From Paramagnetospirillum caucaseum (GTDB lineage: Bacteria > Pseudomonadota > Alphaproteobacteria > Rhodospirillales > Magnetospirillaceae), in contig NZ_AONQ01000033.1 in assembly GCF_000342045.1 (NCBI RefSeq), positions 1 through 49,443 of the forward strand: a stretch of DNA of 49,443 nucleotides, written 5' to 3'. A model generated the notes under the pieces. The model was not told where the DNA came from and made no database searches. It worked only from the letters and a program-made list of their open reading frames with translations. The translations under genes and the position numbers were made by a program. Shown piece by piece: positions 1,003-30,634 of this stretch (position 1 is the stretch's first letter; each line of letters begins with the position of its first letter).

Positions 1003-1048
1003 ATTCGACCAAGGTCGCATGGAACGGCGGCGGCCCCCGCGCTATTCC
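1003..1048 (+). promoter_or_regulatory. PQQ-regulon operator and promoter of exaC
   Basis: ATTCGACCAAGGTCGCAT at 1003-1020 contains the perfect dyad CGACC-AA-GGTCG and aligns with the 18-bp motif found before nine other units of the island. Twenty-two bases downstream is TATTCC (1043-1048), a plausible -10. The exaC start lies about 39 bases after that hexamer. The spacing places the dyad at about -52 to -35, typical of an activator that overlaps the -35 region. The binding protein is not shown by the sequence; a NarL/LuxR-type regulator of the island is inferred. Confidence 0.65.
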
Positions 1049-1086
1049 TGGCGTGTTGCCATTGCACGGTCCAGGAAGGAGCCACC

Positions 1087-2607
1087 ATGCTTTACGCCTC
1101 TCCCAACACTCCGGGTGCCAAGATCCAATACAAGGCCCGGTATGACAATTTCATCGGCGGCAAGTGGGTTGCCCCCTTGAAGGGCGAATACTTCGACGTC
1201 ATCACCCCCATCACCGGCAAGCCCTATACCAAGGCCGCCCGCTCGGGGGCCGAGGACATCGAGCTGGCGCTCGACGCCGCCCATGCCGCCGCCGATGCCT
1301 GGGGCAAGGTGCCCGCCGCCGAGCGGGCCAACGTCCTGCTCAGGATCGCCGACCGGCTGGAGGCCAACCTCGAACTCCTGGCCTATGCCGAGACGGTGGA
1401 CAACGGCAAGCCGATCCGCGAGACCCTGGCCGCCGACATTCCCCTGTCCGTCGATCACTTCCGCTATTTCGCCGGCTGCCTGCGGGCCCAGGAAGGCGGC
1501 ATGAGCGACATCGACGAGAATACCGTCGCCTATCACTTCCATGAGCCGCTGGGCGTGGTCGGCCAGATCATTCCCTGGAACTTCCCCATCCTGATGGCGG
1601 CCTGGAAGCTGGCCCCGGCCCTGGGCGCCGGCAATTGCGTGATCCTGAAGCCCGCCGAATCCACCCCGGTCAGCATCCTGATTCTGGCCGAGCTGATCGC
1701 CGACCTGCTGCCGCCCGGCGTGCTGAACATCGTCAACGGCTATGGCCGCGAGGCGGGGATGCCGCTGGCCACCAGCAAGCGCATCGCCAAGATCGCCTTC
1801 ACCGGCTCCACCACCACCGGCCGGGTTATCGCCCAGGCGGCGGCCAACAACCTGATTCCGGCGACCCTGGAACTGGGCGGCAAGTCGCCCAACATCTTCT
1901 TCCCCGACGTGGCCGCCGCCGATGACGGCTTCTTCGACAAGGCCATCGAGGGGCTGGTGCTGTTCGCCTTCAATCAGGGCGAGGTCTGCACCTGCCCGTC
2001 GCGCGCCCTGATCCACGAATCCATCTACGACAAGGTGATGGAACGCGCCCTGCCGCGCATCGCCGCCATCAAGCAGGGCAGCCCGCTGGACACCGACACC
2101 ATGATCGGCGCCCAGGCCTCCAAGGAGCAGGTGACCAAGATCATGTCCTACCTGGACCTGGGCAAGCAGGAAGGCGCCCAGCTGCTGTGCGGCGGCGAGC
2201 GCGCCTATCTGGGCGGCGAGCTGAGCGACGGCTATTACATCCAGCCGACCCTGTTCAAGGGCCACAACAAGATGCGCATCTTCCAGGAAGAGATCTTCGG
2301 CCCCGTCCTGGCGGTGACCACCTTCAAGGACGAGGCGGACGCCCTGGCCATCGCCAACGATACCCTCTACGGCCTGGGCGCTGGCGTGTGGAGCCGCAAC
2401 GGCAACGTCGCCTACCGCATGGGCCGCGCCATCAAGGCCGGCCGGGTGTGGACCAATTGCTACCACGCCTATCCCGCCCACGCGGCGTTCGGCGGCTACA
2501 AGGAATCGGGCATCGGCCGCGAGACCCACAAGGTCATGCTCGATCACTACCAGCAGACCAAGAACCTGCTGGTCAGCTACTCGGAGAGCAAGCTCGGCTT
2601 CTTCTGA
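1087..2607 (+). CDS. exaC: NAD-dependent acetaldehyde dehydrogenase, ExaC type
   Basis: This 506-residue protein is a full-length aldehyde dehydrogenase that oxidises aldehyde (here most likely acetaldehyde from ethanol) to the acid with NAD+ in the cytoplasm. The NAD-binding stretch [19 protein letters not shown] is followed by the LELGGKSPN motif with the general base Glu262 and by the nucleophile Cys301 in [11 protein letters not shown], all at the usual positions. The close match in length and motifs to ExaC/AldB-type enzymes, and its place beside PQQ-ethanol oxidation genes, support the name. AAGGAG lies seven bases before the ATG. A regulon operator and promoter precede it, and a rho-independent terminator follows. 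A DUF779 gene comes next, as is common for this enzyme group. Confidence 0.95.
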
Positions 2608-2642
2608 TCGCCGGGCGTGCTTCCCCCCTTTGACGCCTTGAC

Positions 2643-2670
2643 GCGCCCGGCTTCGGCCGGGCGCTTTTTT
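2643..2670 (+). terminator. Rho-independent terminator after exaC
   Basis: A perfect 9-bp stem (GCGCCCGGC / GCCGGGCGC) closed by a TTCG tetraloop is followed directly by six T. The ribosome binding site of the DUF779 gene starts right after the T run, so that gene either depends on read-through or has a promoter inside exaC. Confidence 0.9.
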
Positions 2671-2683
2671 CTTGGAGGTTCCC

Positions 2684-3070
2684 ATGGTTGACCGCGTCAC
2701 CGCCACCCCTGCCGCCCTGGAACTGATCGAGCGTCTCAAGGCCCGGCACGGGGCGTTGTTCTTTCACCAGTCGGGTGGTTGCTGCGACAACAGCGCCGCC
2801 AATTGCTTCCTGCCCGGCGAACTGACCCTGGGGGCGGGCGACGTTCTGCTGGGCGAGATCGGCGGCTGCCGGTTCTACATGGGCAAGGCCCAGTTCGAGT
2901 ACTGGAGGCACACCCAGCTGATCATCGACGTCATCGACGGCCATGGCGGCACGTTCTCGCTGGAAGGGCCGGAGGGCAAGGCCTTCCATACCCGCTCGCG
3001 GGTGTTCACCGACGACGAGATGGCCGCACTGGACCGCCTGGGGCCGCCGCCGGTGGGGCCGTTCGGTTGA
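2684..3070 (+). CDS. DUF779 family protein next to aldehyde dehydrogenase
   Basis: This is a 128-residue cytoplasmic protein of the DUF779 family, which is repeatedly found beside aldehyde dehydrogenases of the AldB/ExaC type; its biochemical role is not established. Visible features are a cysteine cluster near residues 30-42 (GGCCDNSAANC), a further Cys in GGCRFYMG and a FEYWRHTQ segment, consistent with a metal- or thiol-related role. The start at 2684 is chosen because GGAGG sits seven bases upstream; a TTG at 2672 would lengthen it by four residues. It lies downstream of the exaC terminator and converges on the TonB receptor gene. Confidence 0.85.
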   Translation: MVDRVTATPAALELIERLKARHGALFFHQSGGCCDNSAANCFLPGELTLGAGDVLLGEIGGCRFYMGKAQFEYWRHTQLIIDVIDGHGGTFSLEGPEGKAFHTRSRVFTDDEMAALDRLGPPPVGPFG

Positions 3071-3078
3071 CCGGGGAA

Positions 3079-3105: not shown

Positions 3106-5412
3106 TCAGAACTTGGCCCGCAGGCCCGCCCAGAAGGAACGCGGCGCACCCGGCGTGCGGAACTGGTTGTCGGAGAAGGTGGGGAACACGCTGGCGGCTT
3201 CGCCGTAGAGGCCGAAGCTCTCGTAGCGGCGGTCCAGGAGGTTGTCGACCCTGAGGAAGGCCGAGGCGAACCCGGCCAGCTTGTACTCGGTCTCGGCGTT
3301 GACCACCTCGTAGCCGCCCAGCCGGCGGCCCAGCCCGGAATCGTCGCCCCGCAGGCGGCGCGAGGAATAGAAGGCGGCGTCCATCTCCACCTGCCATTCG
3401 TCGGAGATCTCGTAGCTGCCGCCCAGCTTCAGGCTGTGCATGGGAATGCCGGCCATGGGCGATCCGCTCCGCACCAGGATGTCGCCGTCGGCGTTGGCGC
3501 CGGGATTTTCCGGGCTGTGCAGGGTGACGTCGTTGTCGAAGGTGGCGCGCACCAGCGCGTAATTGACGAACCAGCCCACCGGCCCGATCCGGCCCTGGTC
3601 GGCGGCCTCGAAGCCGACCCGCAGGGTGCGGCCGGCGTTGCGGAAGTATCCCGTGCCGGTGCCCTGGCCCGAGGCGACGAAGATGATGTCGTCCTGGTTC
3701 TGGGTGCCGAAGCCGGCCAGCGACCAGCTGTGCGACCACGATCCGTCCGCCGCCTGGGCGCGTCCGCGCAGGCCCATCTCCACCGAGCGCGACACCACCT
3801 GCTTCAGCGGCGGGTCGGAGAGGAAGGCGTTGGGGAAGCGGCAGGGCTTGGCGGGATTGGCGCAGGACAGTTCGGCGGCGGTGGGCGCCCGGTTGGCCTC
3901 GCCATAGCCGGCGAAGGCGGTCAGTTCCGGCATCACCTGATAGGCCAGGCCCGCCGCCGGGTTGACGCGCTCGAACATGTGGTCGCCGTTGAGTTCGGTG
4001 CCGAAGCGGTCCGCCAGCACCACCTGGGCGGCGTTGTAGCGTCCCGACAGGGTCAGGGTCAGGCGGTCGGTCAGCGACAGGGAATCGCTGAAATAGACGC
4101 CGACCGTACGGTTGAGGCTGCGCAGCTCGGTCCAGTAGGTGGAGGTGCCGAGGATCGCCCCGCCGCCGCCGACGCTGCGGTCGGCGAGCAGGGAGCCTAC
4201 CTCGCTTTCGCTGTGATAGCGGGTACGGCCCTCGTCCTCGGACAGTCCGAGCACCAGGGTGTTGCCCAGACCCCAGACCGGCCGGTCCAGGCTGGCCTGC
4301 AGGCTGGCCCCCAGCGAGGTGGTGGCGGTCTCGGTGCGGTTGAGCATGCCGGTGCCGCCGGCGCTGGCCAGTATGGCGTTGCCGTTGATATCGGTCAGCG
4401 CCGCCTCGTCGCCCTCGCCGGGGTCCGAGCACAGCTGGGTGGCCGGGGCGACGTTCTGGCAGGGGCCGAAACTGCCGGAATCGCCGTTCAGCGTGCGGTG
4501 GCTGACATGGCGGAAATAGGCGGAGCCCTGCAGCGACAGGCTGTCGCTGATCTCCAGGTTGCCACGCCCCGAGACGCTGATCTGGCGGTTGAGGGACTGG
4601 TCGGGCGAGGTGAAGACGGCGCTGCGGCTGTTGTGCAGCAGCTCCACGGGGCTGGGGCCGTTGCCGGTCAGCTTGGAATCGCCGAAGCCGACGCTCAAGC
4701 CGCCGCTGCCGCGCTCGCCCCGGTATTCCAGGTCACCGAACGCCTGGGTGACCAGGGAGGGCGAGCGCTGCCGCCAGCCGTCCTCGCCGCTGTGGCCGAC
4801 GCCGCCGTAGAAGCCCACATTGCCGACCCTGGCGCCGTGCTGGGCCATCGCCTTGCGCCGCCCGAACGAGCCGCCGGCCGCCATGACCTCGGTGCCGGCA
4901 TAGGAAAAGCCGGTCTTCATGTCCATGACCATGGCGCCGCCCAGGGCGTTGAGGCCGAACACCGGATTGGCGCCGGGCAGGATGTCGGCGCGGTTGACGG
5001 CGAAGGAGGGCACCATCTCCCAGTTGACCAGATCGCCGAAGCTTTCGTTGACCCGCATGCCGTTCTGATAGACCGCCAGGCCCTGGGGCTCGCCCATCAG
5101 GTGCGAGGCGTTGAAGCCGCGGAACGACAGGCTGGGCTGGAAGGCGTTGCCGCCGGTGTCGGACAGCGACACCGAGCCCAGGCGGCGCTCCAGCAGGTCG
5201 GAGACGGTGGCGCCCTTGCCGCGGTCGAGAACCTCGCCGCCCAGGCTCTGCACGTTGGCCGGCATCCGGTCGCGGTCGATGCCCAGGCCGGGAACCGGGG
5301 TGATTCCGATGACGTCCACCTGGGGAACCTTGACGGCCTCCTCGCCCCAGGCGGCCCCCTGGGCCAGAACCCAAAGAGCCGTACCGCACACCAGGATCGT
5401 CTTCCTGCTCAT
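3106..5412 (-). CDS. TonB-dependent outer membrane receptor
   Basis: A 768-residue protein with a cleavable signal peptide (MSRKTILVCGTALWVLAQGAAWG), a plug domain of about 130 residues (SLSFRGFNASHLMGEPQGL, then the NPVFGLNALGGAM region), and a 22-strand-type barrel ending in the typical C-terminal Phe (LRAKF). Such receptors take up metal chelates, cofactors or sugars using TonB energy. The start at 5412 has GGAGG seven bases upstream; an ATG at 5424 is the alternative. An operator of the alcohol-oxidation regulon precedes it, which ties it to the quinoprotein system. Because the dehydrogenase looks lanthanide-dependent, a lanthanide chelate is an attractive substrate, but iron or PQQ itself cannot be excluded. 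A TonB gene of the island lies at 30726-31427. Confidence 0.88.
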   Translation of the reverse strand: MSRKTILVCGTALWVLAQGAAWGEEAVKVPQVDVIGITPVPGLGIDRDRMPANVQSLGGEVLDRGKGATVSDLLERRLGSVSLSDTGGNAFQPSLSFRGFNASHLMGEPQGLAVYQNGMRVNESFGDLVNWEMVPSFAVNRADILPGANPVFGLNALGGAMVMDMKTGFSYAGTEVMAAGGSFGRRKAMAQHGARVGNVGFYGGVGHSGEDGWRQRSPSLVTQAFGDLEYRGERGSGGLSVGFGDSKLTGNGPSPVELLHNSRSAVFTSPDQSLNRQISVSGRGNLEISDSLSLQGSAYFRHVSHRTLNGDSGSFGPCQNVAPATQLCSDPGEGDEAALTDINGNAILASAGGTGMLNRTETATTSLGASLQASLDRPVWGLGNTLVLGLSEDEGRTRYHSESEVGSLLADRSVGGGGAILGTSTYWTELRSLNRTVGVYFSDSLSLTDRLTLTLSGRYNAAQVVLADRFGTELNGDHMFERVNPAAGLAYQVMPELTAFAGYGEANRAPTAAELSCANPAKPCRFPNAFLSDPPLKQVVSRSVEMGLRGRAQAADGSWSHSWSLAGFGTQNQDDIIFVASGQGTGTGYFRNAGRTLRVGFEAADQGRIGPVGWFVNYALVRATFDNDVTLHSPENPGANADGDILVRSGSPMAGIPMHSLKLGGSYEISDEWQVEMDAAFYSSRRLRGDDSGLGRRLGGYEVVNAETEYKLAGFASAFLRVDNLLDRRYESFGLYGEAASVFPTFSDNQFRTPGAPRSFWAGLRAKF

Positions 5413-5436
5413 CGCTGCCTCCATTCACATGGAGCG

Positions 5437-5483
5437 ATCTTGGGCAACGGGACCGGGGGCGGGCAATTCGACCTTGGTCCAAG
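5437..5483 (-). promoter_or_regulatory. PQQ-regulon operator before the TonB receptor
   Basis: Reading the minus strand, CTTGGACCAAGGTCGAAT (5483 to 5466) matches the island-wide dyad. A weak -10-like CAAGAT follows 23 bases later (5442 to 5437), about 25 bases before the receptor ATG. It sits between the receptor gene and the 3' end of the convergently placed upstream gene on the same strand. Confidence 0.55.
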
Positions 5484-5494
5484 GGACTGATTTA

Positions 5495-8000: not shown

Positions 8001-8627
8001 TCAGAAGCGGCCGATCTGGCGCGCCACGATGACCGCCTGGGTACGGCTGGTGACCTTCAGCTTGCGCAGGATGGCGGTCATGTGCGCCTTCACCGTGGTG
8101 TTGGTGACGTCCAGCTCGTAGGCGATCTGCTTGTTGGATTTTCCCCGGGCCAGCAATTGCAGCACCATGCGCTGGCGGTGGGTCAGCGAGCCCAGCTTTT
8201 CCTCCAGCAGAGGATCGATGGTGCGGGTCTTGGTGCCCAGGATTTCCTCGGGCCGGAAGATCTCACCGTTCATCACTAGGCCCACCGCCTCGCACATGCG
8301 TTCCTTGGGCGAGGATTTGGGGATGAAGCCGGCGGCGCCGCAGGCCAGGGCCTGCTCGATGACCTCCACGTCCTCGCTGGCCGAAACCACGATGATCGGG
8401 GTGTCGGGCAGGTCTTCGCGCAGGCGGAGCAGGCCGGTGAAGCCGTCCATGCCCGGCATGTTGAGGTCGAGCAGGATCAGGTCTAGCGGCTCGTCGTCGG
8501 CGAGCGCTGCGCCGATCTGGTTGAAGTCGCAGGCTTCCAGGCATTCGGCGGCGTCGAACGACTGGCCGACCACATGGCGAAGCGCGTCGCGGAACAGCGG
8601 ATGGTCGTCGGCGATCAGGACCCGCAC
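8001..8627 (-). CDS. NarL/LuxR-type response regulator (exaA-adjacent)
   Basis: A 208-residue two-domain regulator. The receiver domain (residues 1-120) has the acidic pocket ADD near residue 7, phospho-acceptor Asp54 in LILLDLNMPGMDG, and the conserved Lys in FIPKSS. The C-terminal LuxR helix-turn-helix has LTHRQRMVLQLLARGKSNKQIAYELDVTNTTVKAHM-type features. The GTG at 8627 is chosen because GGAGGG lies seven bases upstream; an ATG at 8741 would add 38 residues of unlikely sequence. It lies 214 bases downstream of exaA on the same strand. AgmR/ExaE/PedR-type regulators of PQQ-alcohol oxidation are of this class, so it is one of two candidates for binding the operator motif. Confidence 0.88.
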   Translation of the reverse strand: MRVLIADDHPLFRDALRHVVGQSFDAAECLEACDFNQIGAALADDEPLDLILLDLNMPGMDGFTGLLRLREDLPDTPIIVVSASEDVEVIEQALACGAAGFIPKSSPKERMCEAVGLVMNGEIFRPEEILGTKTRTIDPLLEEKLGSLTHRQRMVLQLLARGKSNKQIAYELDVTNTTVKAHMTAILRKLKVTSRTQAVIVARQIGRF

Positions 8628-8799
8628 GGAAAGCCCTCCGGAGAAAGCGGGGTCGGGCGCGGGCCCGACCCCAGTCGACGGGAGGATCATAACATTGGCG
8701 CTCCCGCTTCGGAAATTCGCATCGTCATATTTCGATTCCATTTGAACCTCCGGGATGCGGGGGCACCATCAGCGCGGAACATGCCCGATCTCCCCCCGC

Positions 8800-8841: not shown

Positions 8842-10581
8842 TCAGGACTTGGGCAGCTTGAACACCCAGAGCATGCCGCCCTGGGGGATGTCCTTGATCT
8901 TCTTGGCGACCTCGCCGCCCCACAGCGGCACGGCGCCGCCCCAGCCCGAGGCGACGGCCACATACTGCTCGCCGTCCATCTCCCAGGTGACGGGCACGCC
9001 CACCACGCCCGAGCCGGTCTGGAACTTCCACACTTCCTGGCCGGTCTTGGCGTCGAAGGCCTTGAGGAAACCCTCGGGGGTGCCGGTGAACACCAGGTTG
9101 CCCTTGGTGGTCAGCACGCCGCCCCACAAGGGCGCCGGGTTCTTGTATTCCCAGACGATCTTGCCACTCTTGGGGTCGATGGCGCGCAGCGCGCCGATAT
9201 AGTCGTCGTAGAGCGGCTTGATGGTGAAGCCGGCGCCCAGATAGGCGGCGCCCTTCTTGTAGGTCACCGGCTCGTTCCAGATGTCCATGCCCCATTCGTT
9301 GGCCGGGACGTAGAACAGGTCGGTGTCGGGGTTGTAGGCCATGGGCATCCAGTTCTTGCCGCCCAGGAAGGAGGGGGCCGAGAACACCACCTTGCCCTTG
9401 CCCTCGCCGACCGGGGCGCCGGGGCGGTTTTCCGGGACGAGCTTGGGTTTGCCGGCGGAATCGAAGCCGGTGGCCCAGCTGGTCTTGGTCACGAACGGCG
9501 TGGCGCTGATGAATTTGCCGTTGGTGCGGTCCAGCACGAAGAAATAGCCGTTGCGGTCGGCCTTGGCGCCGGCCTTGATGGTCTTGCCGTCCTTCTTCAG
9601 GTCGAACGATACCAGTTCGTTGACGCCGTCGAAATCCCAGCCGTCATGGGGCGTGGTCTGGTAGTGCCAGACGATCTTGCCGGTATCGGGGTCGATGGCC
9701 AGGGTCGAGGCGCTGTACAGGTTGTCGCCGGGCCGGGTGTGGCTGTTCCACGGCGCCGGGTTGCCGGTGCCGTAGAAGATCAGGTTGGTTTCGGGGTCGT
9801 AGGTGCCGCCCAGCCAGGTGGCGGCGCCGCCCGACTTCCACATGTCGCCCGGCCAACTGGCGTTGGTGGTGCCGGTGATGCCGTTGTCCTTGCCGTTGAG
9901 GGTGCCCATGTGGCCCTCGACGGTGGGCCGCGACCAGATCAGCTCGCCGGTCTTGGCGTCGCGAGCCTCGACCTTGCCGATGACGCCGAACTCGCCGCCC
10001 GACACGCCGGTGATAACCTTGCCCTTGACGATCATCGGCGCGGCCGAGAACGAGTAGCCGGCCTTGTAGTCCTCCAGGTCCTTCTTCCAGACGACCTTGC
10101 CGGTCTCCTTGTTCAGCGCCACCAGCTTGGCGTCCAGGGTGCCGAAGATCACCAGTTCGTCATAGAGGGCGGCGCCGCGATTGATCACGTCGCAGCACGG
10201 CATGATGCCGTCGGGCAGGCGGGCCTCGTAGGTCCACTTCTGCTTGCCGGTCTTGGCGTCCAGGGCGAACAGGCGCGAGTACGAGCCGGTGACGTAGATG
10301 GTGCCGTCCTGAATCAGCGGCTGGCTTTCCTGGCCGCGCATCTTTTCGCCGCCGAAGGAATAGGCCCAGACCGGCACCAGCTTGGACACCGTGTCGGGAT
10401 TAAGCTTGTCCAGCTTGCTGAAGCGCTGGCCCTGGGTGCCGATGCCGTAGCTCAACACCTCGGAGGTGTTGTTGGGATCGTTGGCAAGGTCGGCGTCGGT
10501 CACCGGCCTGGCCTGGGCTCCGGCGGTGGCCAGCAGCGCGACGGCACTGATGGCGCCGGCAAGATGTCGTTTGAAGCTCAT
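8842..10581 (-). CDS. exaA: PQQ-dependent alcohol dehydrogenase with lanthanide-type active site
   Basis: A 579-residue periplasmic quinoprotein (signal peptide to about residue 24, [10 protein letters not shown]) with the eight-blade propeller of methanol/ethanol dehydrogenases. It oxidises primary alcohols with PQQ and passes electrons to cytochrome c. Visible features: vicinal Cys129-Cys130 (MPCCDV) that forms the disulfide over PQQ, metal ligands in the GVSGGE and GTGNPAPWN motifs, and catalytic Asp316 in [10 protein letters not shown]. Asp318, two residues after it, is the extra ligand known from lanthanide enzymes (XoxF, ExaF, PedH); calcium enzymes have Ala, Ser or Thr there. The start at 10581 has GAGGA upstream. 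Its own operator and promoter lie between pqqC and this gene. Ethanol or another short alcohol is the likely substrate, given exaC. Confidence 0.93.
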
Positions 10582-10697: not shown

Positions 10698-10742
10698 ATA
10701 CTATTTGACGGCGACAGTGGCGCAATTACCTAAAGGTCCAAT
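10698..10742 (-). promoter_or_regulatory. PQQ-regulon operator and promoter of exaA
   Basis: On the minus strand ATTGGACCTTTAGGTAAT (10742 to 10725) is followed after 21 bases by TAGTAT (10703 to 10698), a good -10 match. It begins just after the pqqC stop codon and would give a leader of about 110 bases before the exaA ATG. Confidence 0.7.
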
Positions 10743-15364: not shown

Positions 15365-15401
15365 CGCTCCGTCCTTCGCAGCAAAACTACGCTGGGCGGC
15401 G

Positions 15402-17658: not shown

Positions 17659-18390
17659 GCAGCGCGCTGACGGTCACCGGCCTGGGCTACCGCTACCGTT
17701 CCGGCTTCGCCCTGGATGGCGTGGACTTCACCACCGAAGCCGGGGCCTTCACCGTTCTGCTCGGCCCCAACGGGGCGGGCAAGAGCACCCTGGTCAATCT
17801 GGTGACCCGTCTTTACTCCCCCGAAACCGGCGGCGTGTTCATCGGCGGCCACGACCTGGCGGCCGCGCCGGGCAAGGCCCTGGCCCGCCTGGGGGTGGTG
17901 TTCCAGCAATCCACCCTGGACCTCGACCTGTCGGTGGAGCGCAACCTGCGCTACGGCGCCGCCCTGCACGGGCTGTGGGGGGGGAGGGGCTGACCGGTCG
18001 ATCGAGGATGGCCTTGCCCGCTTCGGGCTGGAGGGGGCGCGCCGGCAGCCGGCCCGCGCCCTGTCGGGCGGCAACCGCCGCAAGCTGGAATTGGCCCGCG
18101 CCCTGGCCCACAAGCCCGCCGTCCTGGTCTGCGACGAGGCGACGGTTGGCCTCGACACGCCGTCGCGCCGGGCGCTGCTCGCCCATCTCCGCCTCCTGTG
18201 CCGGGAGGAGGGGCTGGCGGTGCTGTGGGCCACCCACCTGATGGACGAGGTGGAGGAGGCCGACCCGGTGGTGCTGCTCGAGGCCGGACGGGTGCGGGCT
18301 GCGGGATTGGCCGGGGAGCTGGTGCGGCGCACCGGCGCGCCGGGGCTGGAAGGCGCCTTCCAGGCCCTGCTGGCGGAGGCGGGGCCATGA
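17655..18390 (+). pseudogene. ABC transporter ATP-binding protein (PedB-like), frameshifted at a G8 tract
   Basis: The frame starting at 17655 encodes a normal ABC ATPase N-terminus with Walker A (LLGPNGAGKSTLVN) and the Q-loop (GVVFQQS) but hits a stop at 17991-17993. The rest (signature LSGGNRRKLELARAL, Walker B AVLVCDEATVGLD, switch ATHLMDE) continues in the +1 frame to 18390. Removing one G from the run of eight at 17967-17974 restores a single protein of about 244 residues joined as GLWGGGADRSIEDGLARFG. The neighbouring genes are intact and overlap by ATGA at both ends. The break may be a sequencing error, a genuine mutation or slippage at the G run; the sequence alone cannot decide. Confidence 0.8.
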
Positions 18391-21440: not shown

Positions 21441-21486
21441 AGTCTAGGAAGGCGCGGGGGGCTGGGGTATTGGACCTATTGCCAAT
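21441..21486. promoter_or_regulatory. PQQ-regulon operator between second ABC operon and CxxxCW gene
   Basis: ATTGGACCTATTGCCAAT (21469-21486) is closest to the consensus, with ATTGG/CCAAT arms. On the minus strand TAGACT (21446 to 21441) lies 22 bases away before the ABC operon; on the plus strand GATGAT lies 22 bases away before the CxxxCW gene. It may drive both directions. Confidence 0.7.
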
Positions 21487-21520: not shown

Positions 21521-22030
21521 ATGAAGCGCCTTGTCCTCGCCCTGCTGTTGCTTGCTCTCCCGGCCTGGGCCGACGACGGATACCGCACGGGCGATTATCG
21601 CGCCCCGGTGCCGCTGGAACTGGAGGGCGCCGTCACCCTCGACACCGACGAGGCCCGCGACCTGCTGGCCGGGGGTGGGGTGGTGGTCATCGACGTGCTG
21701 CCCGCGCCGCGCCGCGCCGCCGACGGTGCCTGGCTGGTTCCCAAGCCGCGCCTCAGCCTGCCCGGCGCGGTATGGCTGGCCAATGCCGGCTACGGCGATC
21801 TGCCGCCCGCCATGGAGGCGTGGTTCGCCGGGCAGTTGAATCGGCTGAGCGGCGGCGACACGGCCCGTCCGCTGCTGTTCTTCTGCATCATCGATTGCTG
21901 GATGAGCTGGAACGCCGCCCGGCGGGCGTTGTCGCTGGGCCATCGCCGCGTCTACTGGTACCCGGACGGCTCGGACGGCTGGGCCTTCGCCGGCTTGCCG
22001 CTGGAGCGGGTGGACCCGCGCGGCCCGTGA
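21521..22030 (+). CDS. PQQ-dependent catabolism-associated CxxCW-motif protein
   Basis: A 169-residue exported protein (signal peptide MKRLVLALLLLALPAWA) with a rhodanese-like fold: a VVVIDVLPAPRR segment and the family hallmark FFCIIDCWMSWNAARRA (Cys-x3-Cys-Trp as seen here). This family is found almost only with PQQ-alcohol systems; its activity is not known, but the Cys pair suggests redox or sulfur chemistry, perhaps linked to the SoxYZ-like carrier. It starts 34 bases after the operator dyad and converges with the cytochrome-Cache gene. Confidence 0.88.
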   Translation: MKRLVLALLLLALPAWADDGYRTGDYRAPVPLELEGAVTLDTDEARDLLAGGGVVVIDVLPAPRRAADGAWLVPKPRLSLPGAVWLANAGYGDLPPAMEAWFAGQLNRLSGGDTARPLLFFCIIDCWMSWNAARRALSLGHRRVYWYPDGSDGWAFAGLPLERVDPRGP

Positions 22031-22094: not shown

Positions 22095-22856
22095 TCAGTG
22101 AAAGTAATACCCGACGCCGACGATGTGATCACCGACCCGCTGGATCATGGAGCGCTTCTTTTCCACCCGGTTGTCGACCCGGTTCAGCCACATGTAGTCC
22201 ACCTCGCCCTTGCCGGCGGCATTGGCGATGTTGATCATCTCGCGGACGATGGCCTTGCCCTCGGCGTCGTGCAGGTTGGCGGCGTCGCTGCCGGTCAGCC
22301 TGGGATTGCCGCCCGACGCCATGTACCTGCCGTTCATGTCGAAGACGAAGACGTAGAGGTCGCGGGCGATGAAGCCGCCCTTGGGGTCGTTGAAGGCGGG
22401 GAAGGCCTTGTCCGGCCCGTCGCTCCTGAGCTTGCCCACGGCGCGCTCCAGCAGCACGCGGGCCTGTTCCGGTCCCATGCTGTCGCCGAAGGTCTTGAGA
22501 TAGGCGATCAGGTAGTCCTGCTCGGCGCGGTCGGTGACCGCCACATGGCGCATGCGGGTGCCGGGCACCACCTTGTCGTTGCCGGCGATCCAGGCGCGCA
22601 GGTTGTCCTCGGTCCACACGATGTTGGCGGCCTTCAGCGCTTCGGAATACATGAAGGTGGGCAGCGAGGCCGCCGGGCGCCCCACCACGCCGTGCAGGTT
22701 GGGGCCGAAGCCCTGCTTGCCGCTCTCGGCGGAATGGCAGGCCTTGCAGCGCTCGAAGACGTGGCTGCCGGCGATCTCCTCGACGGTGGCGGCGCCGGCG
22801 GGCAGGGCGGCGGTCAGCAGGGCGGTGCCCAGCAGGGCGGCAGGCAGGCGTTTCAT
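22095..22856 (-). CDS. Cytochrome c fused to a Cache sensor-type domain
   Basis: A 253-residue exported protein. After a signal peptide (MKRLPAALLGTALLTAALPAGA) comes a class I cytochrome c domain with Cys37-x-x-Cys40-His41 (CKACH) and a likely Met ligand in GTRMRHVAV. The last 110 residues form a Cache-like domain (VFVFDMNGRYMASGGNPRLTG, then YMWLNRVDNRVEKKRSMIQRV), normally an extracytoplasmic ligand sensor. The fusion suggests electron transfer controlled by a small ligand, or a haem-linked sensor; this is inference. The start at 22856 is chosen for its signal peptide. A regulon operator precedes it. Confidence 0.85.
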   Translation of the reverse strand: MKRLPAALLGTALLTAALPAGAATVEEIAGSHVFERCKACHSAESGKQGFGPNLHGVVGRPAASLPTFMYSEALKAANIVWTEDNLRAWIAGNDKVVPGTRMRHVAVTDRAEQDYLIAYLKTFGDSMGPEQARVLLERAVGKLRSDGPDKAFPAFNDPKGGFIARDLYVFVFDMNGRYMASGGNPRLTGSDAANLHDAEGKAIVREMINIANAAGKGEVDYMWLNRVDNRVEKKRSMIQRVGDHIVGVGYYFH

Positions 22857-22893
22857 GGGTCCAGGTCTCCCCCGACGGTCTCGATGGGCGGGG

Positions 22894-22939
22894 AGGCTAG
22901 CACCCACCCCCGGCCCCGGCCATTAGACCTAGGGACAAG
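22894..22939 (-). promoter_or_regulatory. PQQ-regulon operator of the cytochrome-Cache gene
   Basis: The plus strand reads ATTAGACCTAGGGACAAG at 22922-22939; on the minus strand, 22 bases further, is TAGCCT (22899 to 22894), about 38 bases before the ATG. The operator overlaps the last codons of the M48 peptidase gene. Confidence 0.6.
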
Positions 22940-23961: not shown

Positions 23962-24008
23962 ATTAGACCTATTGCCAATTGCCGCGCCGAGCCCCCGGTC
24001 AACACAAT
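23962..24008 (+). promoter_or_regulatory. PQQ-regulon operator of pqqDE
   Basis: ATTAGACCTATTGCCAAT (23962-23979) is followed after 23 bases by CACAAT (24003-24008), a moderate -10. A leader of roughly 77 AT-rich bases leads to the pqqD start. Confidence 0.65.
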
Positions 24009-24385: not shown

Positions 24386-25475
24386 CGGACAGGGCAAGCC
24401 GCTCTGGCTGGTCTGCGAACTGACCTACAAGTGCCCGCTGAAATGCCCGTGGTGCAACAACCCGCTGGAATTCGGCTCCATCCGCGATGAACTGTCCACC
24501 GAGGAGTGGAAGCGGGTGCTGCGCGAGTCCCGCGCGCTCGGCAGCCTGCAACTGGGCTTCACCGGCGGCGAGCCGCTGGTGCGCAAGGACCTGGAGGAAC
24601 TGGTGGCCGAGGCCGACCGGCTGGGCTTCTACACCAACCTGATCACCTCGACGGTGGGCATGGATGCCGAGCGGCTGGGCCGTCTCAAGGCGGCGGGCCT
24701 GAAGCAGATCCAGGTCAGCCTGCAATCCCACGACGCCGACACCACCAACACCCTGGTGGGGGCGCCGGTGCACCAGCACAAGATCGACATGATCCGCGAG
24801 ATCAAGGCCCAGGGCTTTCCGGTGGTGCTGAACATCCCGGTGGTGCGCCAGAACATCGCCCATACCACGGCCTATCTGGAATTGGCCCTGGAACTGGGGG
24901 TCGATTACGTCGAGTTCGCCAACGTCCAGTACTACAACTGGGCCCTGGTCAACCGCGACGAACTGATGCCGACCCTGGAGGAGTTGCGGGAGTCCGAGGC
25001 GGCCATCAACGCCTTCCGCGCCCGGATCGGCAAGCGGATGACCATCTACTTCGTCATCCCCGACTATTTCAACGGTCGCCCCAAGGCCTGCATGAACGGC
25101 TGGGGCTCGATCATCATGACCATCGCCCCCGACGGCCTGGCGCTGCCCTGCCAGGAGGCGCGCCTCCTCGAGGGCCTCGACTTCCCCTCGGTGCGCGACC
25201 ATTCGGTGGAATGGATCTGGAAGGATTCCCCCGCCTTCAAGACCTATCGCGGCGACGACTGGATGAAGGAGCCCTGCCGCTCCTGCGACGAGAAGGAAAA
25301 GGATTTCGGCGGCTGCCGCTGCCAGGCCTATCTGCTGACCGGCGACGCCGCCAACCCCGATCCCGCCTGCTCGAAATCGCCCTTCCATCACAAGATCGGC
25401 CAGGCGATCGTCGAGGCGCACCGGCCGCTGCGCAACTCCCGGCCCCTGGTGATGCGCCAGGCCGGGGCATCTTAG
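24348..25475 (+). CDS. pqqE: PqqA peptide cyclase PqqE (radical SAM)
   Basis: A 375-residue radical SAM enzyme that links Glu and Tyr of PqqA by a carbon-carbon bond, the first step of PQQ synthesis. The Cys29-x3-Cys33-x2-Cys36 cluster (CPLKCPWC) binds the SAM [4Fe-4S] cluster. GFTGGEPLVRKDL is the SAM-contact region, and the C-terminal Cys residues (CMNGWG, ALPCQEAR, CRSCDEKEKDFGGCRC, PACSKS) form the SPASM auxiliary clusters. Length and motifs are standard. It starts inside pqqD and is followed by a separate operator for pqqA. Confidence 0.97.
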   Translation: MTKDGPARPLRLDGQGKPLWLVCELTYKCPLKCPWCNNPLEFGSIRDELSTEEWKRVLRESRALGSLQLGFTGGEPLVRKDLEELVAEADRLGFYTNLITSTVGMDAERLGRLKAAGLKQIQVSLQSHDADTTNTLVGAPVHQHKIDMIREIKAQGFPVVLNIPVVRQNIAHTTAYLELALELGVDYVEFANVQYYNWALVNRDELMPTLEELRESEAAINAFRARIGKRMTIYFVIPDYFNGRPKACMNGWGSIIMTIAPDGLALPCQEARLLEGLDFPSVRDHSVEWIWKDSPAFKTYRGDDWMKEPCRSCDEKEKDFGGCRCQAYLLTGDAANPDPACSKSPFHHKIGQAIVEAHRPLRNSRPLVMRQAGAS

Positions 25476-25517
25476 ACCTATTGGCAATTTCGACGCTGGC
25501 GGCCTGGGGCGTAGGCT
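25471..25517 (+). promoter_or_regulatory. PQQ-regulon operator and promoter of pqqA
   Basis: CTTAGACCTATTGGCAAT (25471-25488) overlaps the pqqE stop codon; 23 bases later comes TAGGCT (25512-25517), about 40 bases before pqqA. A separate promoter fits the need for much more PqqA substrate than enzymes. Confidence 0.7.
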
Positions 25518-25557: not shown

Positions 25558-25632
25558 ATGAAGTGGGAAAAGCCGGCCTATTGCGACCTGCGTATGGGCT
25601 TCGAAGTCACCGCGTACGTCTTCGTGCGCTGA
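25558..25632 (+). CDS. pqqA: PQQ precursor peptide PqqA
   Basis: A 24-residue peptide starting MKWEKPAYCDLRMGFEVTAY with the diagnostic Glu16-x3-Tyr20 that supply the atoms of PQQ. The ending VFVR is also typical. AGCGAGGA lies about eight bases before the ATG. It is placed after pqqDE instead of at the head of the pqq operon, with its own operator, and is followed at once by a strong hairpin that probably limits read-through or protects the short message. Confidence 0.97.
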   Translation: MKWEKPAYCDLRMGFEVTAYVFVR

Positions 25633-25672: not shown

Positions 25673-25694
25673 ACCCTTCCCGAGAGAGCTTTCC

Positions 25695-26326: not shown

Positions 26327-26393
26327 GCCGGCCATGCCCATGGATGCCCGTCCCCCGCGCAACCGGGGAAATACCATTCTGCGTCAGGGCAAG

Positions 26394-26399
26394 GTATAC
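26394..26399 (+). promoter_or_regulatory. Candidate -10 box before the FIST gene
   Basis: TATACT lies about 40 bases before the GTG proposed as the FIST start, with GCGTCA-like sequence upstream. No copy of the island operator is near, so the sensory operon is probably expressed independently. Transcription from here would exclude the more upstream ATG at 26334. Confidence 0.4.
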
Positions 26400-26438
26400 T
26401 TGCCGCAACCACCGCATTCGAACAGGTGGATAGAGGGA

Positions 26439-27599
26439 GTGCGCGCGGAGGTGACTTCCGCCGGCGATGGAATCAAGCGCGGGTTCAGCCAGGCTGCCGA
26501 CGCCAGGGCCGCCGTGGCCGAATTGCGCGACCAGATCCACCAGTCCGACATGGCGGTCGTGCTGTTCTTCTGCTCGCCCGCCTTCGATCTGGAGGAACTG
26601 GGCCGCGCCATGCGCGACGCCTTCCCCGACACCCTGACGCTGGGCTGCTCGACGGCGGGGGAGATCACCCCCATGGGCTATTGCACCGGCTCGCTGACCG
26701 GCCTGTCCATGAGCGGCGACATCTGCCACGCCGACGCGGTCTATATCGACCAGCTGTCGGAATTCGCCTTCAGCCACGGGCTCGATTCGGTGCGCCAGGG
26801 ACTGGCCCGCATGGCCGAGACCGAGGGGCCGGACTTCACCCAGGGCACCTTCGCCATGCTGATGATCGACGGTATGTCCAGCGCCGAGGATTCGGTGCTG
26901 TCGGCCCTGCATGCCGGGTTGGGAGAAATCCCGCTGTTCGGCGGCTCGGCCGGCGACGACCTCAATTTCCGCCGCACCTGGGTCTACCGCGACGGGCGTT
27001 TCCATTCCGACATGGCGGCGCTGGTGCTGGTGCACACGCCGTTTCCCTTCCGGGTGTTCAAGACCCAGCATTTCGTCGGCTCGGACACCAAGATGGTGAT
27101 CACCGGCGCCGATCCCCTGCGCCGCATCGTCACCGAGATCAACGCCGAGCCGGCCGGGCGGGAATTCGCCCGCATGCTGGGCATGGAGGTGGCCGAACTC
27201 ACCCCGATGATCTTCGCCACCCACCCGGTGGTGGTGCGGGTGGGCGGGGCCGATTACGTGCGGTCCATCCAGAAGGTCAATCCCGACGGCTCGCTGTCGT
27301 TCTTCTGCGCCATCGACGAGGGGCTGGTGCTGTCGGTGGCCAGCACGGTGGACCCCTACGCCAATCTCGCCCAGGTGTTCGAGGATATCCGCGCCGAGAT
27401 CGGCCCGCCGCAGTTGATCATCGGCTGTGAATGCGTGTTGCGCTCGCTGGAGATGGAGCGCACCCAGATGAAGCAGCGCATGAGCGATCTGCTGATCGCC
27501 AACAACGTGGTGGGCTTCAACACCTATGGCGAACAGTTCAACGCCATGCACGTCAACCAGACCTTCACCGGCGTCGCCCTGGGGGCGCGGCGGCAATGA
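26439..27599 (+). CDS. FIST-domain sensory protein
   Basis: A 386-residue cytoplasmic protein with FIST N and C domains (AVVLFFCSPAFDLEELGRAM, LGCSTAGEITPMGY, LFGGSAGDDLNF, IGCECVLRSLE), thought to bind small ligands such as amino acids and to feed signal-transduction proteins. GTG at 26439 (then RAEVTSAGDGIKRGF) is preferred because residues before it look non-coding and a -10-like box lies between; the frame opens at an ATG at 26334, which would give 421 residues. Its stop overlaps the kinase start (ATGA), so both are made together. A FIST gene sits in the same place beside the ErcS' kinase in the Pseudomonas exa locus. Confidence 0.85.
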   Translation: MRAEVTSAGDGIKRGFSQAADARAAVAELRDQIHQSDMAVVLFFCSPAFDLEELGRAMRDAFPDTLTLGCSTAGEITPMGYCTGSLTGLSMSGDICHADAVYIDQLSEFAFSHGLDSVRQGLARMAETEGPDFTQGTFAMLMIDGMSSAEDSVLSALHAGLGEIPLFGGSAGDDLNFRRTWVYRDGRFHSDMAALVLVHTPFPFRVFKTQHFVGSDTKMVITGADPLRRIVTEINAEPAGREFARMLGMEVAELTPMIFATHPVVVRVGGADYVRSIQKVNPDGSLSFFCAIDEGLVLSVASTVDPYANLAQVFEDIRAEIGPPQLIIGCECVLRSLEMERTQMKQRMSDLLIANNVVGFNTYGEQFNAMHVNQTFTGVALGARRQ

Positions 27600-29878
27600 C
27601 GGAGACCGGCGCCGGGTCCGATGAACTGGGACGGTTGAAGGCCGAGAACGAAAAGCTGCGCAAGATCAACAAGGTCCTGATGGACCGGGTGGAACGCGCC
27701 ACCGACTGGCAGGGCAACGCCTTCTCGCTGTTCCAGGCCTCCATCGTGCTGGAAGGGCGGGTGGAGGAGCGCACCATCCAGCTGGAAGCGGCGCTGCGCC
27801 AGCTGGAATCGGTCAACAGCGACCTGTCGCGGGCCAAGGAAGCGGCGGAACAGGCCCAGCGCCGCCTGCATGACGCCATCGAGACCATTTCCGAGGGCTT
27901 CGCCCTGTTCGACGCCGACGACCGGCTGGTGCTGTGGAACAGCAATTACGTCAGCCTGATCAAGGTTCTCGGCCAGAGCGTCCGGGTCGGTACCCCCTTC
28001 GTCGAGGTGATCCGCAACGCCGTGGCCAACGGCGCCATCCGCGACGCCCAGGGGCGCGAGGAGGAGTGGACCGCCGAGCGCATCGCCTATCACCATCACC
28101 CCGGCCGCTCCTTCGTCTATCGCCTCAGCGACGGCCGCTGGGTTCAGGTCAACGAGCGCCGCACCGACGATGGCGGCACCGTCTCGCTCTACACCGATAT
28201 CACCGACATCAAGGACATGGAGGAAAAGCGGCGCGAGCGGGAACTGGCGGAAAAGTCGGAACTGCTGCAGGCCACCCTGGAAAGCCTGTCCCAGGGGGTG
28301 GCGGTGTTCAACAGCCACCTGCGGCTGGTGGCGTGGAACCAGCGCTATGTGGATCTCCACCATTTTCCGTCGGGACTGATCCGCGAGGGCACCCATTATT
28401 CCGAGGTGCTGCGCCTCAACGCCGAGCGCGGCGAGTACGGGCCGGGCAATCCCGACCGGCATGTGGCCGAGCGGGTCTCCACCGCGCTCGCCCGCCTGCC
28501 ACGCGCCTTCGAGCGCCGCCTGTCGGCCGGCACCATCGTCGACGTGGCCAGCAATCGCATGCCCGACGGCGGCTTCGTCAGCACCTACAGCGACATCACC
28601 GAGCGCAAGCTGGCTGATACCCGCCTGCGCGATTCGGAAAGCCGCCTGAAGGCCGCCGCCCGCGACCTGCAACTGGCCAACGAATCCCTGGAACGCCGGG
28701 TGGACCAGCGCACCGCCGAACTCTCCGCCGCCAACCAGGCGCTGCATCTGGCCAAGATCGCCGCCGAGCTCGCCAACGCCTCCAAGACCAAGTTCCTGGC
28801 CGCCGCCAGCCACGACCTGCACCAGCCGCTCAACGCCGCCCGCCTGTTCGTCGCCGCCCTGGCCGAGCAGGACGCCATGGACAAGAGCAACCGCGATTTG
28901 GTGGTCAGCATCGACAACGCGCTGGAAGCCATCGACGGCCTGCTGCGCGCCCTGTTCGACATCTCCAAGCTGGATGCCGGGGTGATGACCGCCGAACTGG
29001 CCGGCTTCGAGGTTGGGCCGCTGCTCGACCAGCTGCGCAAGGAATACCTGCCCCAGGCGCGCGAGGCGGGCATCGACCTCAGGGTTATGCCCTGCCGGGC
29101 GGTGATCCAGAGCGATCCCCGCCTGCTGGGCCGGGTGCTGCGCAATTTCCTGTCCAACGCGCTGCGCTATACCGAGCGGGGCCGCATCCTGCTGGGCTGC
29201 CGGCGGCGGGGCAACAGACTGCTGATCGGGGTGTGGGACAGCGGCATCGGCATTCCCGAGGAGAAGATGGGCGACATCTTCCAGGAGTTCCAGCAGATCG
29301 CCCTGCCCGGTCGGCGGCGCGAGAAGGGCATGGGCCTGGGGCTGGCCATCGTCGAACGCATCGCCCGCCTGCTCGACCATCCGCTGGAGGTGCGCTCGCG
29401 CCTGGGGGCGGGGTCCAGCTTCGCCATCGCCGTGCCCCTGGCCGAGCGGGTCACCGCCGGGGCGGTGCCGGGGCCGGGGGCGGCACCGGCCGCCGACCGC
29501 GATGCCATGAACGGCCTGCCGGTGCTGGCCATCGACGACGATCCCAGCGGGCTGGAGGCCATCACCGCCCTGCTGACTGCCTGGAAGTGCCGGGTGACGC
29601 CGATCCGCTCCCGCGCCGAACTGCGGGACTGGCTGGAGGCCAAGCCCGATGCGCCGCGCATCGTGGTGGCCGACTATCACCTGGGCGACGGCAGCAACGG
29701 CGTCATGCTGATCGAGGAATTGCGCGCCCATTTCGGCGCCGATCTGGCCGCCTTCGTGGTGACCAGCGACCGTACCCCCGGCCTCAGGGCCGGATTGAAG
29801 GAAAAGGGCCTGGCCATGCTGCCCAAGCCGGTTCAGCCGGCCCGCCTGCGCGCCTTGATCTCCCATCTGGCGCGGTGA
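27596..29878 (+). CDS. Hybrid histidine kinase with PAS domains (ErcS'/NahK-like)
   Basis: A 760-residue soluble kinase without membrane helices. Order: N-terminal coiled coil (residues 10-105), two PAS-7 domains (about 105-220 and 235-345), second coiled coil, HisKA with phospho-acceptor His406 (AAASHDLHQPLNAARLF), ATPase domain (RNFLSNALRY, DSGIGIP, GMGLGLAIVERI), and a C-terminal receiver with Asp693 (IVVADYHLGDGS). This architecture matches ErcS'/NahK-type kinases that control PQQ-ethanol oxidation in Pseudomonas. It is coupled to the FIST gene, which may be its input, and faces a response-regulator gene 24 bases away, its likely partner. Confidence 0.92.
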   Translation: MTETGAGSDELGRLKAENEKLRKINKVLMDRVERATDWQGNAFSLFQASIVLEGRVEERTIQLEAALRQLESVNSDLSRAKEAAEQAQRRLHDAIETISEGFALFDADDRLVLWNSNYVSLIKVLGQSVRVGTPFVEVIRNAVANGAIRDAQGREEEWTAERIAYHHHPGRSFVYRLSDGRWVQVNERRTDDGGTVSLYTDITDIKDMEEKRRERELAEKSELLQATLESLSQGVAVFNSHLRLVAWNQRYVDLHHFPSGLIREGTHYSEVLRLNAERGEYGPGNPDRHVAERVSTALARLPRAFERRLSAGTIVDVASNRMPDGGFVSTYSDITERKLADTRLRDSESRLKAAARDLQLANESLERRVDQRTAELSAANQALHLAKIAAELANASKTKFLAAASHDLHQPLNAARLFVAALAEQDAMDKSNRDLVVSIDNALEAIDGLLRALFDISKLDAGVMTAELAGFEVGPLLDQLRKEYLPQAREAGIDLRVMPCRAVIQSDPRLLGRVLRNFLSNALRYTERGRILLGCRRRGNRLLIGVWDSGIGIPEEKMGDIFQEFQQIALPGRRREKGMGLGLAIVERIARLLDHPLEVRSRLGAGSSFAIAVPLAERVTAGAVPGPGAAPAADRDAMNGLPVLAIDDDPSGLEAITALLTAWKCRVTPIRSRAELRDWLEAKPDAPRIVVADYHLGDGSNGVMLIEELRAHFGADLAAFVVTSDRTPGLRAGLKEKGLAMLPKPVQPARLRALISHLAR

Positions 29879-29883
29879 TTGAC

Positions 29884-29900
29884 GCGGGCGTTCCGTCCGC
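29884..29900. terminator. Short hairpin between convergent kinase and regulator genes
   Basis: GCGGGCG-TTC-CGTCCGC forms a 7-bp stem with one G-T pair in the 24-base gap. It belongs to the same small GGGCG/CGCCC hairpin style seen at 3086, 39511 and 49425. No T run. Confidence 0.45.
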
Positions 29901-29902
29901 AT

Positions 29903-30547
29903 TCACCCCATGGCCGTGTGGGCGGCGCCCTCTTCCTCCTCGGTGCGCTTGGTCTTGATTACCGCCTGGGTGCGCGAATGGACTCGCAGCTTGCGCAGCA
30001 CCGAGGAGACATGGACCTTCACCGTGGTGTCCGACACCTGCAGTTCGTAGGCGATCTGCTTGTTGGAGCAGCCGCGCACCAGGGCTTCCAGCACCATGCG
30101 CTCGCGCACCGTCAGCGCATCGACCCGCTCGACGGATTCGGGGCGGCGGCGACCCCTGGCGTCCACCAGGGGCGGATAGATGCCGCCGTCCAGGACGACG
30201 GCGATGGCGGCCAGCATGGCGTCGCGGGTCAGGGATTTGGGAATGAAGCCCGCCGCGCCGCACACCTGGGCGTGGAAGGCCACCACCCGGGAGTCCGCCC
30301 CGGAAAACAGGATGATCGGCACGTCGGGGGCGGCGATGGACAGCCGCACCAGACCGGTCAGCCCGTCGGAATCGGCCAGGGACTGGTCGATCAGCATCAG
30401 CCGCACCCCGTTGCCCGCCGCCAGCAGGTCGACGACGTCGGCGATGGCGGCGGCCTCCAGGCAGCGGGCGGTGGGCAGGGCCTCCTCGATCAGGGCCCGC
30501 AGCACCTCGCGGAACAGGGGGTGGCGGTCGGCGACCAGAACCAGCAT
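29903..30547 (-). CDS. NarL/LuxR-type response regulator (operator-controlled)
   Basis: A 214-residue regulator with a receiver domain (ADRHPLFREVLRAL, phospho-acceptor Asp54 in LMLIDQSLADSDG, Lys in FIPKSL) and a LuxR helix-turn-helix (LTVRERMVLEALVRGCSNKQIAYELQVSD region). It resembles the regulator at 8001 and AgmR/ExaE-type activators. Its own promoter carries the island operator with a CATAAT -10, so it is likely autoregulated, and it is the best candidate for the protein that binds all ten sites. The tail is rich in Glu (KRTEEEEGAAH). Convergent with the hybrid kinase. Confidence 0.92.
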   Translation of the reverse strand: MLVLVADRHPLFREVLRALIEEALPTARCLEAAAIADVVDLLAAGNGVRLMLIDQSLADSDGLTGLVRLSIAAPDVPIILFSGADSRVVAFHAQVCGAAGFIPKSLTRDAMLAAIAVVLDGGIYPPLVDARGRRRPESVERVDALTVRERMVLEALVRGCSNKQIAYELQVSDTTVKVHVSSVLRKLRVHSRTQAVIKTKRTEEEEGAAHTAMG

Positions 30548-30588
30548 GACCTTCCTTGCGTCCTCCGCCGGGAATCGGCAGTGGGGCG

Positions 30589-30634
30589 ATTATGGAAAGC
30601 GGCCCCCGGAGCGCCTATTGGCAATAGGTCCACT
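30589..30634 (-). promoter_or_regulatory. PQQ-regulon operator of the response-regulator gene
   Basis: Minus strand AGTGGACCTATTGCCAAT (30634 to 30617) is followed after 22 bases by CATAAT (30594 to 30589), the best -10 of the set, 42 bases before the ATG. The divergent tonB gene could also use the site, with ACCTAA 22 bases away on the plus strand, a poor -10. Confidence 0.7.

Follow-up and report, generated by a model that had tools for sequence, protein, structure and literature searches.

The window analysed here, i.e., the entire 49,443-nt contig C33 (NZ_AONQ01000033.1; 68 % G+C) of the Paramagnetospirillum caucaseum genome (4.86 Mb, 236 contigs), harbours between 1 and 31.5 kb a ped/exa-type gene cluster for alcohol oxidation dependent on pyrroloquinoline quinone (PQQ), in which ten copies of an 18-bp palindromic element very probably represent landing sites of the pathway's switch protein. 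As judged from matches to domain and family models, the cluster encodes an aldehyde dehydrogenase, a TonB-dependent receptor, a NarL-type regulator (RR_B), a PQQ alcohol dehydrogenase, PqqC, a metallo-beta-lactamase-fold protein, a SoxYZ-like carrier, a periplasmic binding protein, cytochrome c-550 PedF, a PQQ-associated ABC transporter with a beta-propeller protein, a second transporter, a CXXCW rhodanese, a cytochrome with Cache domain, PqqD, a radical SAM protein, PqqA, a FIST protein, a hybrid kinase of the NahK/ErcS type, a second NarL-type regulator (RR_A) and TonB. The names PqqB (metallo-beta-lactamase-fold protein), PqqE (radical SAM protein) and PqqA were assigned from Pfam domain, position or sequence pattern only; the gene at 25558–25632 (+) is taken to be pqqA by its E-x-x-x-Y pattern.

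Every one of the ten 18-mers reported in a preliminary description of this DNA is present, and a weak eleventh site was added:

1003–1020, plus strand: predicted operator before the aldehyde dehydrogenase gene (1087–2607, +); TATTCC at a gap of 22 bp, the weakest −10 hexamer
5466–5483, minus strand: predicted operator before the TonB-dependent receptor gene (3106–5424, −); CAAGAT, gap 23 bp
10725–10742, minus strand: predicted operator before the genes for the PQQ alcohol dehydrogenase and RR_B (−); TAGTAT, gap 21 bp
15430–15447, minus strand: predicted operator before pedF and, presumably as one operon, the genes down to pqqB and pqqC (−); TACCAT, gap 22 bp
15485–15502, plus strand: predicted operator before the operon for the ABC transporter associated with the PQQ alcohol dehydrogenase (+); TAGACT, gap 22 bp
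21469–21486, minus strand: predicted operator before the NMT1/SsuA-like transporter operon (−), in the divergent gap to the CXXCW rhodanese gene (21521–22030, +); TAGACT, gap 22 bp
22922–22939, minus strand: predicted operator before the gene for a cytochrome c and Cache-domain protein (22095–22907, −); TAGCCT, gap 22 bp
23962–23979, plus strand: predicted operator before pqqD and the radical SAM gene presumed to be pqqE (+); CACAAT, gap 23 bp
25471–25488, plus strand: predicted operator before pqqA (+); TAGGCT, gap 23 bp
30617–30634, minus strand: predicted operator before the RR_A gene (29903–30547, −), i.e., a possible feedback; CATAAT, gap 22 bp
30652–30669, plus strand: possible weak eleventh operator (6.1 bits) facing tonB (30726–31427, +); CATCCT, gap 23 bp

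The gene classes originally named behind the sites (quinoprotein, PQQ, cytochrome, transport and regulator genes) have to be extended by aldehyde dehydrogenase, served by site 1003, and site 25471 can be assigned to pqqA. A bidirectional function of site 21469 was considered and rejected: the hexamer on the rhodanese side (GATGAT, gap 22 bp) is located just 12 bp upstream of the ATG, and two of the ten sites possess such a hexamer on the side not used, a number within chance.

The consensus given originally (ATTRGACCTATTGCCAAT) denotes a real motif and is too narrow, since allowing up to three mismatches it recovers five of the ten sites (0.05 expected by chance). The element is better described as the palindrome ATTGGACCTAGGTCCAAT, both strands being counted. 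With a palindromic matrix the ten sites reach 20.7–29.0 bits and are the ten best of the window, the next best position scoring 13.7 bits. In leave-one-out scoring the left-out sites retain 16.8–28.0 bits and none is outranked by any unlisted position in the window; 100 order-2 Markov shuffles of the window yielded in total nine positions above 16.5 bits (top 22.0). The earlier statement that no copy occurs at 31428–49443 is correct as far as copies as strong as the ten are concerned, 13.7 bits at 48757 being the highest score in this region.

All ten hexamers listed in the preliminary description are indeed located 21–23 bp downstream of the 18-mer. Nine of them fit NAnnnT (exception: TATTCC at 1003), the local expectation being ~9 % per site (P ~2e-9, or ~2e-7 when corrected for 98 windows). 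Other 3-bp spacing windows not overlapping with 21–23 bp yield at most 4/10 matches and the opposite side of the same sites 1–2/10. The hexamer spacing constitutes evidence independent of the matrix. That the sites were chosen by eye and that the original consensus fits half of them would be in keeping with a dispersed repeat or a chance set devoid of regulatory function; the leave-one-out ranking, the independent −10 spacing and the conservation before the same genes (see below) render this explanation practically negligible.

Provided that the hexamers represent −10 boxes located at −12 to −7, the 18-mer would cover approximately −52 to −35 and be centred near −43.5. At the place of the −35 box, the best of three spacers gave four of six matches to TTGACA in three of the ten sites and fewer elsewhere, i.e., a good TTGACA was not found at any of the ten promoters with the three spacers tried. 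Two features of class II activation are visible in the sequence, a site predicted to abut the −35 region and a weak −35. The activator position abutting −35 that was proposed initially stands in silico, based on the fixed spacing, the lack of a good TTGACA and the position of the ACTU motif of CrbR/ErdR. According to the available text of PMC5715377, the latter is an imperfect inverted repeat in acs and actP promoters of Gammaproteobacteria that a LuxR-type response regulator requires for activation; it occurred in 91 of 112 promoters analysed. In P. fluorescens acs it comprises 17 bp from −52 to −36, directly before an RpoD promoter. Changing one base lowered the induction and changing four abolished activity, also in an E. 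coli reporter. A repressor occupying −52 to −35, blocking the polymerase and released by a signal, would likewise abut the −35 region, and most tested ErdR targets were expressed at higher level upon deletion of erdR in one study (available sections of PMC9927353). Yet promoters without a good −35 should need an activator, and the same position in ACTU is activating as judged from mutation and the E. coli reporter (PMC5715377), so that repression is considered very improbable.

Scanning the genome with the degenerate palindrome (at most one mismatch) revealed 27 places, i.e., nine of the listed sites in the 49-kb window (site 15430 deviates at two positions) and 18 in the remaining 4.8 Mb, compared to 10 for the reversed control. 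The matrix was applied to parts of the genome and found no position above 16 bits, and three above 14 bits, in 12 other 20-kb stretches (240 kb). The proposition that the motif might be equally frequent elsewhere is hence decided in favour of enrichment in the cluster, by the degenerate pattern genome-wide and by the matrix on these parts.

Among 39 relatives from the same genus and family, pattern matches (both strands) are concentrated in four genomes, G005 (11), G008 (10), G019 (8) and G023 (5), the others containing 0–3, and these four also hold the best RR_B matches of all (91, 86, 59 and 70 % identity, respectively). Only G005 and G008 possess close RR_B orthologues among 16 other genomes of the genus (the rest ≤49 %), and in these two alone does a single contig bear several matches to the pattern (C23 with 7 of 8 places and C3 with 3 of 7, respectively); in the fragmented genome G019, 7 places are distributed over 7 contigs. 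G005 possesses counterparts of all ten sites upstream of the corresponding genes, in unchanged order and together with one extra site; the counterpart of the TonB-receptor site scores 16.3 bits and is followed by CAAGAT. In G008 and G023, the genes of which are arranged differently, sites are located before dehydrogenase, cytochrome, transporter, aldehyde dehydrogenase and regulator genes. The dehydrogenase site (10725) is conserved in G005 and G008, and the aldehyde dehydrogenase site is found in G005, G008 and G023, with a NAnnnT hexamer in G008 only. The possible tonB-facing site in the gap between the RR_A gene and tonB, which scores 6.1 bits in the window, is matched by sites of 11.5 bits in G005 and 23.9 bits in G008.

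The wider conservation of the element was assessed in 80 named loci, which were collected by a dehydrogenase search, include many close relatives and were classified by hand with respect to RR_B. Matrix hits above 20 bits amount to 26 in these loci and to none in one shuffled set. Upstream of the dehydrogenase gene, a proximal half-site of at least 9 bits combined with a −10 hexamer at 21–23 bp was found in 40 of the 43 loci that have an RR_B orthologue next to this gene, in 4 of 5 gammaproteobacterial loci with RR_B ~6 kb away and in 1 of 32 loci without RR_B in the locus itself, the threshold having been picked after a first look (at 7 bits: 41/43, 4/5 and 9/32). In this half-site form the element occurs before the alcohol dehydrogenase gene across the Alphaproteobacteria. 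Four Azospirillum loci of the class without RR_B in the locus share a diverged site (CTGCTACTATCCGACAAT) followed at 21 bp by TACACT. In relatives, the site and the regulator of the 8001 type (RR_B) occur together, which supports in silico the early suggestion of a NarL-type regulator as reader.

In addition to the choice of threshold and the kinship of many loci, several observations weigh against an activator operator read by RR_B. Firstly, 18 pattern matches lie outside the window, including a near-perfect palindrome (ATTCGACCTATGTCGAAT) at C53:14049–14066, which with 26.7 bits is the strongest outside place scored (C70:4623 reaches 21.2 bits) and has no −10 on either side. This place was discarded as a member of the regulon due to the missing −10 and its location ~240 bp upstream of an open reading frame judged OmpA-like by eye; it may reflect chance or the site of another regulator. 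Secondly, no hexamer follows the aldehyde dehydrogenase sites of G005 and G023, nor either of the two dehydrogenase sites in the latter genome. Thirdly, all six checked alphaproteobacterial genomes of the class without RR_B in the locus (L048, L050, L052, L055, L057, L079) hold an RR_B-like gene elsewhere, as do both checked Pseudomonas-group genomes; therefore, the contrast between loci with and without RR_B is one of degree and linkage rather than of genome presence. Fourthly, the P. caucaseum genome itself encodes further regulator paralogues, so that the reader could be another one. Finally, a search for pqqA sites with the strict matrix was negative in 12 genomes that lie outside the lineage (under the strict criteria, 8 hits occur in 240 kb of background).

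To conclude that pqq operons outside the lineage lack the operator was too strong, since inspection of the promoters showed a diverged half-site. Before pqqA, CCAAAGTCGCAT is present in all five Azospirillum and Caenispirillum genomes and CCAAAGTAGGAT in both Alteromonas genomes, in each case with TAnnnT at a gap of 22–23 bp. In case of Pseudomonas pedF, CCAAAGCAGCAT with TAAGAT or TACTAT at a gap of 22 bp was observed at 8 of 8 loci, and in case of Pseudomonas-group pqqA, CCAAAGTACCAT with CTTAAT at a gap of 22–23 bp in 3 of 3 genomes, CTTAAT not conforming to NAnnnT. These Pseudomonas sequences stem from species other than P. putida. A broader pattern matches 7 of 12 pqqA, 40 of 69 pedF and 24 of 80 dehydrogenase promoters, the first two counts being descriptive more than a test, since the pattern was written after viewing those pqqA and some of the pedF promoters. 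The control of 37 matches in 4000 random 250-bp pieces speaks to the chance rate of this pattern only and may include true sites. In the own genome, the pattern occurs once in 240 kb and at five places in the window (three listed sites and the tonB-facing site among them). For two Methylobacterium pqqA regions, the upstream sequence is short (226 and 81 bp).

As a separate observation, dehydrogenase promoters of Pseudomonas (L109, L111, L113–L116, L120, L123, L124) share GGTATTGCTACCAAGGA and ATCGG...CAATTGTTG...AAGAAT, possibly recognised by the other ped regulator. In three Novosphingobium loci (L070, 8450; L087, 8310; L094, 8332), one operator is located between the propeller gene and pedF with TAnnnT at 21–22 bp on both sides, as would be expected if a single bound dimer acted on two divergent promoters. 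PqqC (E ≤ 1e-40) was not found in any of nine sphingomonad genomes with PQQ dehydrogenase and regulator (L061, L067, L068, L069, L070, L077, L081, L087, L092), which may depend on PQQ from outside.

Two paralogous regulators are encoded within the cluster:

8001–8741, minus strand: RR_B, a NarL-type response regulator downstream of the dehydrogenase gene, with Response_reg (PF00072) and GerE (PF00196) domains above the Pfam cut-offs
29903–30547, minus strand: RR_A, a paralogous NarL-type regulator carrying an operator site in its own promoter

The receiver domain of RR_B is complete, its nearest solved chain being NarL (1a04). RR_A lacks the complete acidic pocket (Asp-Asp), the second Asp of the pair being replaced by Arg (three) or Cys (one) in all four sequences inspected (that of the window, with Arg, and the orthologues L128, L129 and L132, one of them with Cys), while the phospho-acceptor Asp and the Lys are kept. 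In a 49-row tree both proteins belong to one supported group of the window's family (95/96), the order inside this group being open; RR_A is placed on a long branch, as a duplication would give, which suggests that it may be a lineage duplicate of RR_B with an altered receiver. RR_B/RR_A and the Pseudomonas AgmR-type rows form separate clades without exclusive grouping, the deep forks being open or weakly supported. The best NCBIfam model for RR_B is that of ErdR (NF041830, cut-off 390 bits), below which RR_B (184.7 bits), RR_A (124.3 bits) and the Pseudomonas AgmR-type row (180.2 bits; taken as AgmR as the best hit that fails the ErdR model) remain, in contrast to Pseudomonas ErdR (441.9 bits). 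A recognition-helix stretch, TTVKAHVSAILRKL and close variants, is common to RR_B and to sphingomonad, Azospirillum, Alteromonas and Pseudomonas AgmR-type proteins, and partly to ErdR. Such near-identical helices would fit one operator family and do not distinguish between its readers.

The closest described element is ACTU (available text of PMC5715377), examples of which (TACTACCATCGTCGAAT, CTAGACTTACGTCCAAT) share with the 18-mer the outer GTCnAAT half and the predicted position, the inner ACC being similar too. It differs in serving acetate genes rather than a PQQ alcohol cluster and in having TAnTACC-like distal halves as compared to ATTGGACC of the 18-mer. With the ErdR model failed by RR_B and RR_A, both would represent the same kind of element with a different regulator and regulon. 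The similar half-site of ACTU, its agreement with the predicted position of the 18-mer, the near identity of the recognition helices across the group and the presence of more paralogues in the genome could also be explained by a reader encoded elsewhere (e.g., a CrbR/ErdR-like acetate regulator), leaving RR_B and RR_A with some other function. This is judged unlikely, since other genomes of the genus hold paralogues (best 46–49 %) but neither a close RR_B orthologue nor a site cluster, RR_B adjoins the dehydrogenase gene in 43 of the 80 loci, and both RR_B and RR_A score far below the ErdR cut-off. RR_B is proposed as the main reader of the operator, with RR_A probably reading it as well.

Further features of the locus resemble the system of AgmR (PedR1/ErbR), the reported activator of ped and pqq genes in Pseudomonas, i.e., a LuxR-type regulator located in a ped cluster together with NosP/NahK-like genes (available parts of PMC12997753). 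The models TIGR04494, TIGR03861, TIGR03866, TIGR03863, TIGR03865, TIGR04557 and NF041832 all score above cut-off, which assigns RR_B and RR_A to a ped cluster, the location of AgmR/PedR1. The individual genes are as follows:

8842–10578, minus strand: PQQ-dependent dehydrogenase of the methanol/ethanol family (TIGR03075, 795 bits, cut-off 480); nearest named relative returned by the scan is the dehydrogenase of L047, an uncultured Magnetospirillum metagenome-assembled genome (90 % identity)
14942–15370, minus strand: cytochrome c-550 PedF (TIGR04494, 214 bits, cut-off 122)
16357–19184, plus strand: PQQ-associated beta-propeller protein, ABC ATPase and PedC permease (TIGR03866 and TIGR03861 above cut-off, TIGR03864 below cut-off on the reading frame as given)
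26334–27599, adjoining the hybrid kinase gene: FIST-domain (NosP-like) gene, FIST domains above the Pfam cut-off
27431–29878, plus strand: hybrid histidine kinase of the NahK/ErcS family (NF041832, 461 bits, cut-off 400)

The TonB-dependent receptor (3106–5424) matches the models for PqqU and siderophore receptors weakly, far below their cut-offs, and its substrate is possibly PQQ or a metal carrier. The Pseudomonas system differs from the present one in its separate pqq operon, the pqq genes being part of the cluster here. An operator of AgmR is not given in the examined parts of the ped review (PMC12997753, 2026), none was found in a literature search that reached few subscription papers, and the available text of PMC13390443 contained no match to the motif terms. 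Among other regulators, EmaR of Acinetobacter is a two-component regulator of ethanol metabolism with a proposed 15-bp motif, the sequence of which (CTTATxxxxATxAT) is unlike that of the 18-mer (available text of PMC9603970). RpuR of Sinorhizobium, a response regulator of the LuxR type, is associated with a short conserved element in promoters that is a direct rather than an inverted repeat, and has its role in pyruvate uptake (available text of PMC9100948).

Ten copies at the same distance before start signals, together with related copies before the same genes in distant bacteria, point very probably to the site of a switch protein. With good confidence, the 18-mer may be regarded as the class II activator operator of a NarL/LuxR-type regulator of the AgmR/ErdR group (RR_B and its paralogue RR_A), switching on the ped/exa-type regulon for PQQ-dependent alcohol oxidation. 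We infer from the promoter layout that a regulator dimer would bind the palindrome of 9+9 bp near −43.5, abutting the −35 region, and recruit sigma-70 RNA polymerase to promoters that have a recognisable −10 and no good −35. An alcohol-derived signal, relayed through the NahK/ErcS-like kinase, would thereby jointly switch on the PQQ alcohol dehydrogenase together with its cytochrome c-550, the aldehyde dehydrogenase, the synthesis of PQQ (pqqA, pqqDE, pqqBC), the associated transporters and the TonB receptor, perhaps also TonB, and RR_A itself as feedback.

The preliminary description was right in outline, and the phylogenetic reach of the element is wider than one genome shows. We lean slightly towards an even broader view, in which the element would be an unrecognised operator of the whole AgmR/RR_B branch (CC[A/T]A[A/G]GTnnnAT, 21–23 bp, TAnnnT) that links the genes for alcohol dehydrogenase and cytochrome c-550 with those for PQQ synthesis in both Alpha- and Gammaproteobacteria, Pseudomonas pedF and pqqA included, with additions in the Magnetospirillum line (aldehyde dehydrogenase, TonB receptor, second transporter) and the RR_A duplicate providing feedback via these sites. 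Lanthanide biology and alcohol bioprocessing are the fields in which the ped/exa system is investigated. Once its operator and promoter layout are defined, the regulon would become a searchable list, the bases to be mutated in laboratory strains (e.g., P. putida KT2440) would be known exactly, and ped control could be separated more easily from that by the closely related acetate regulator ErdR.

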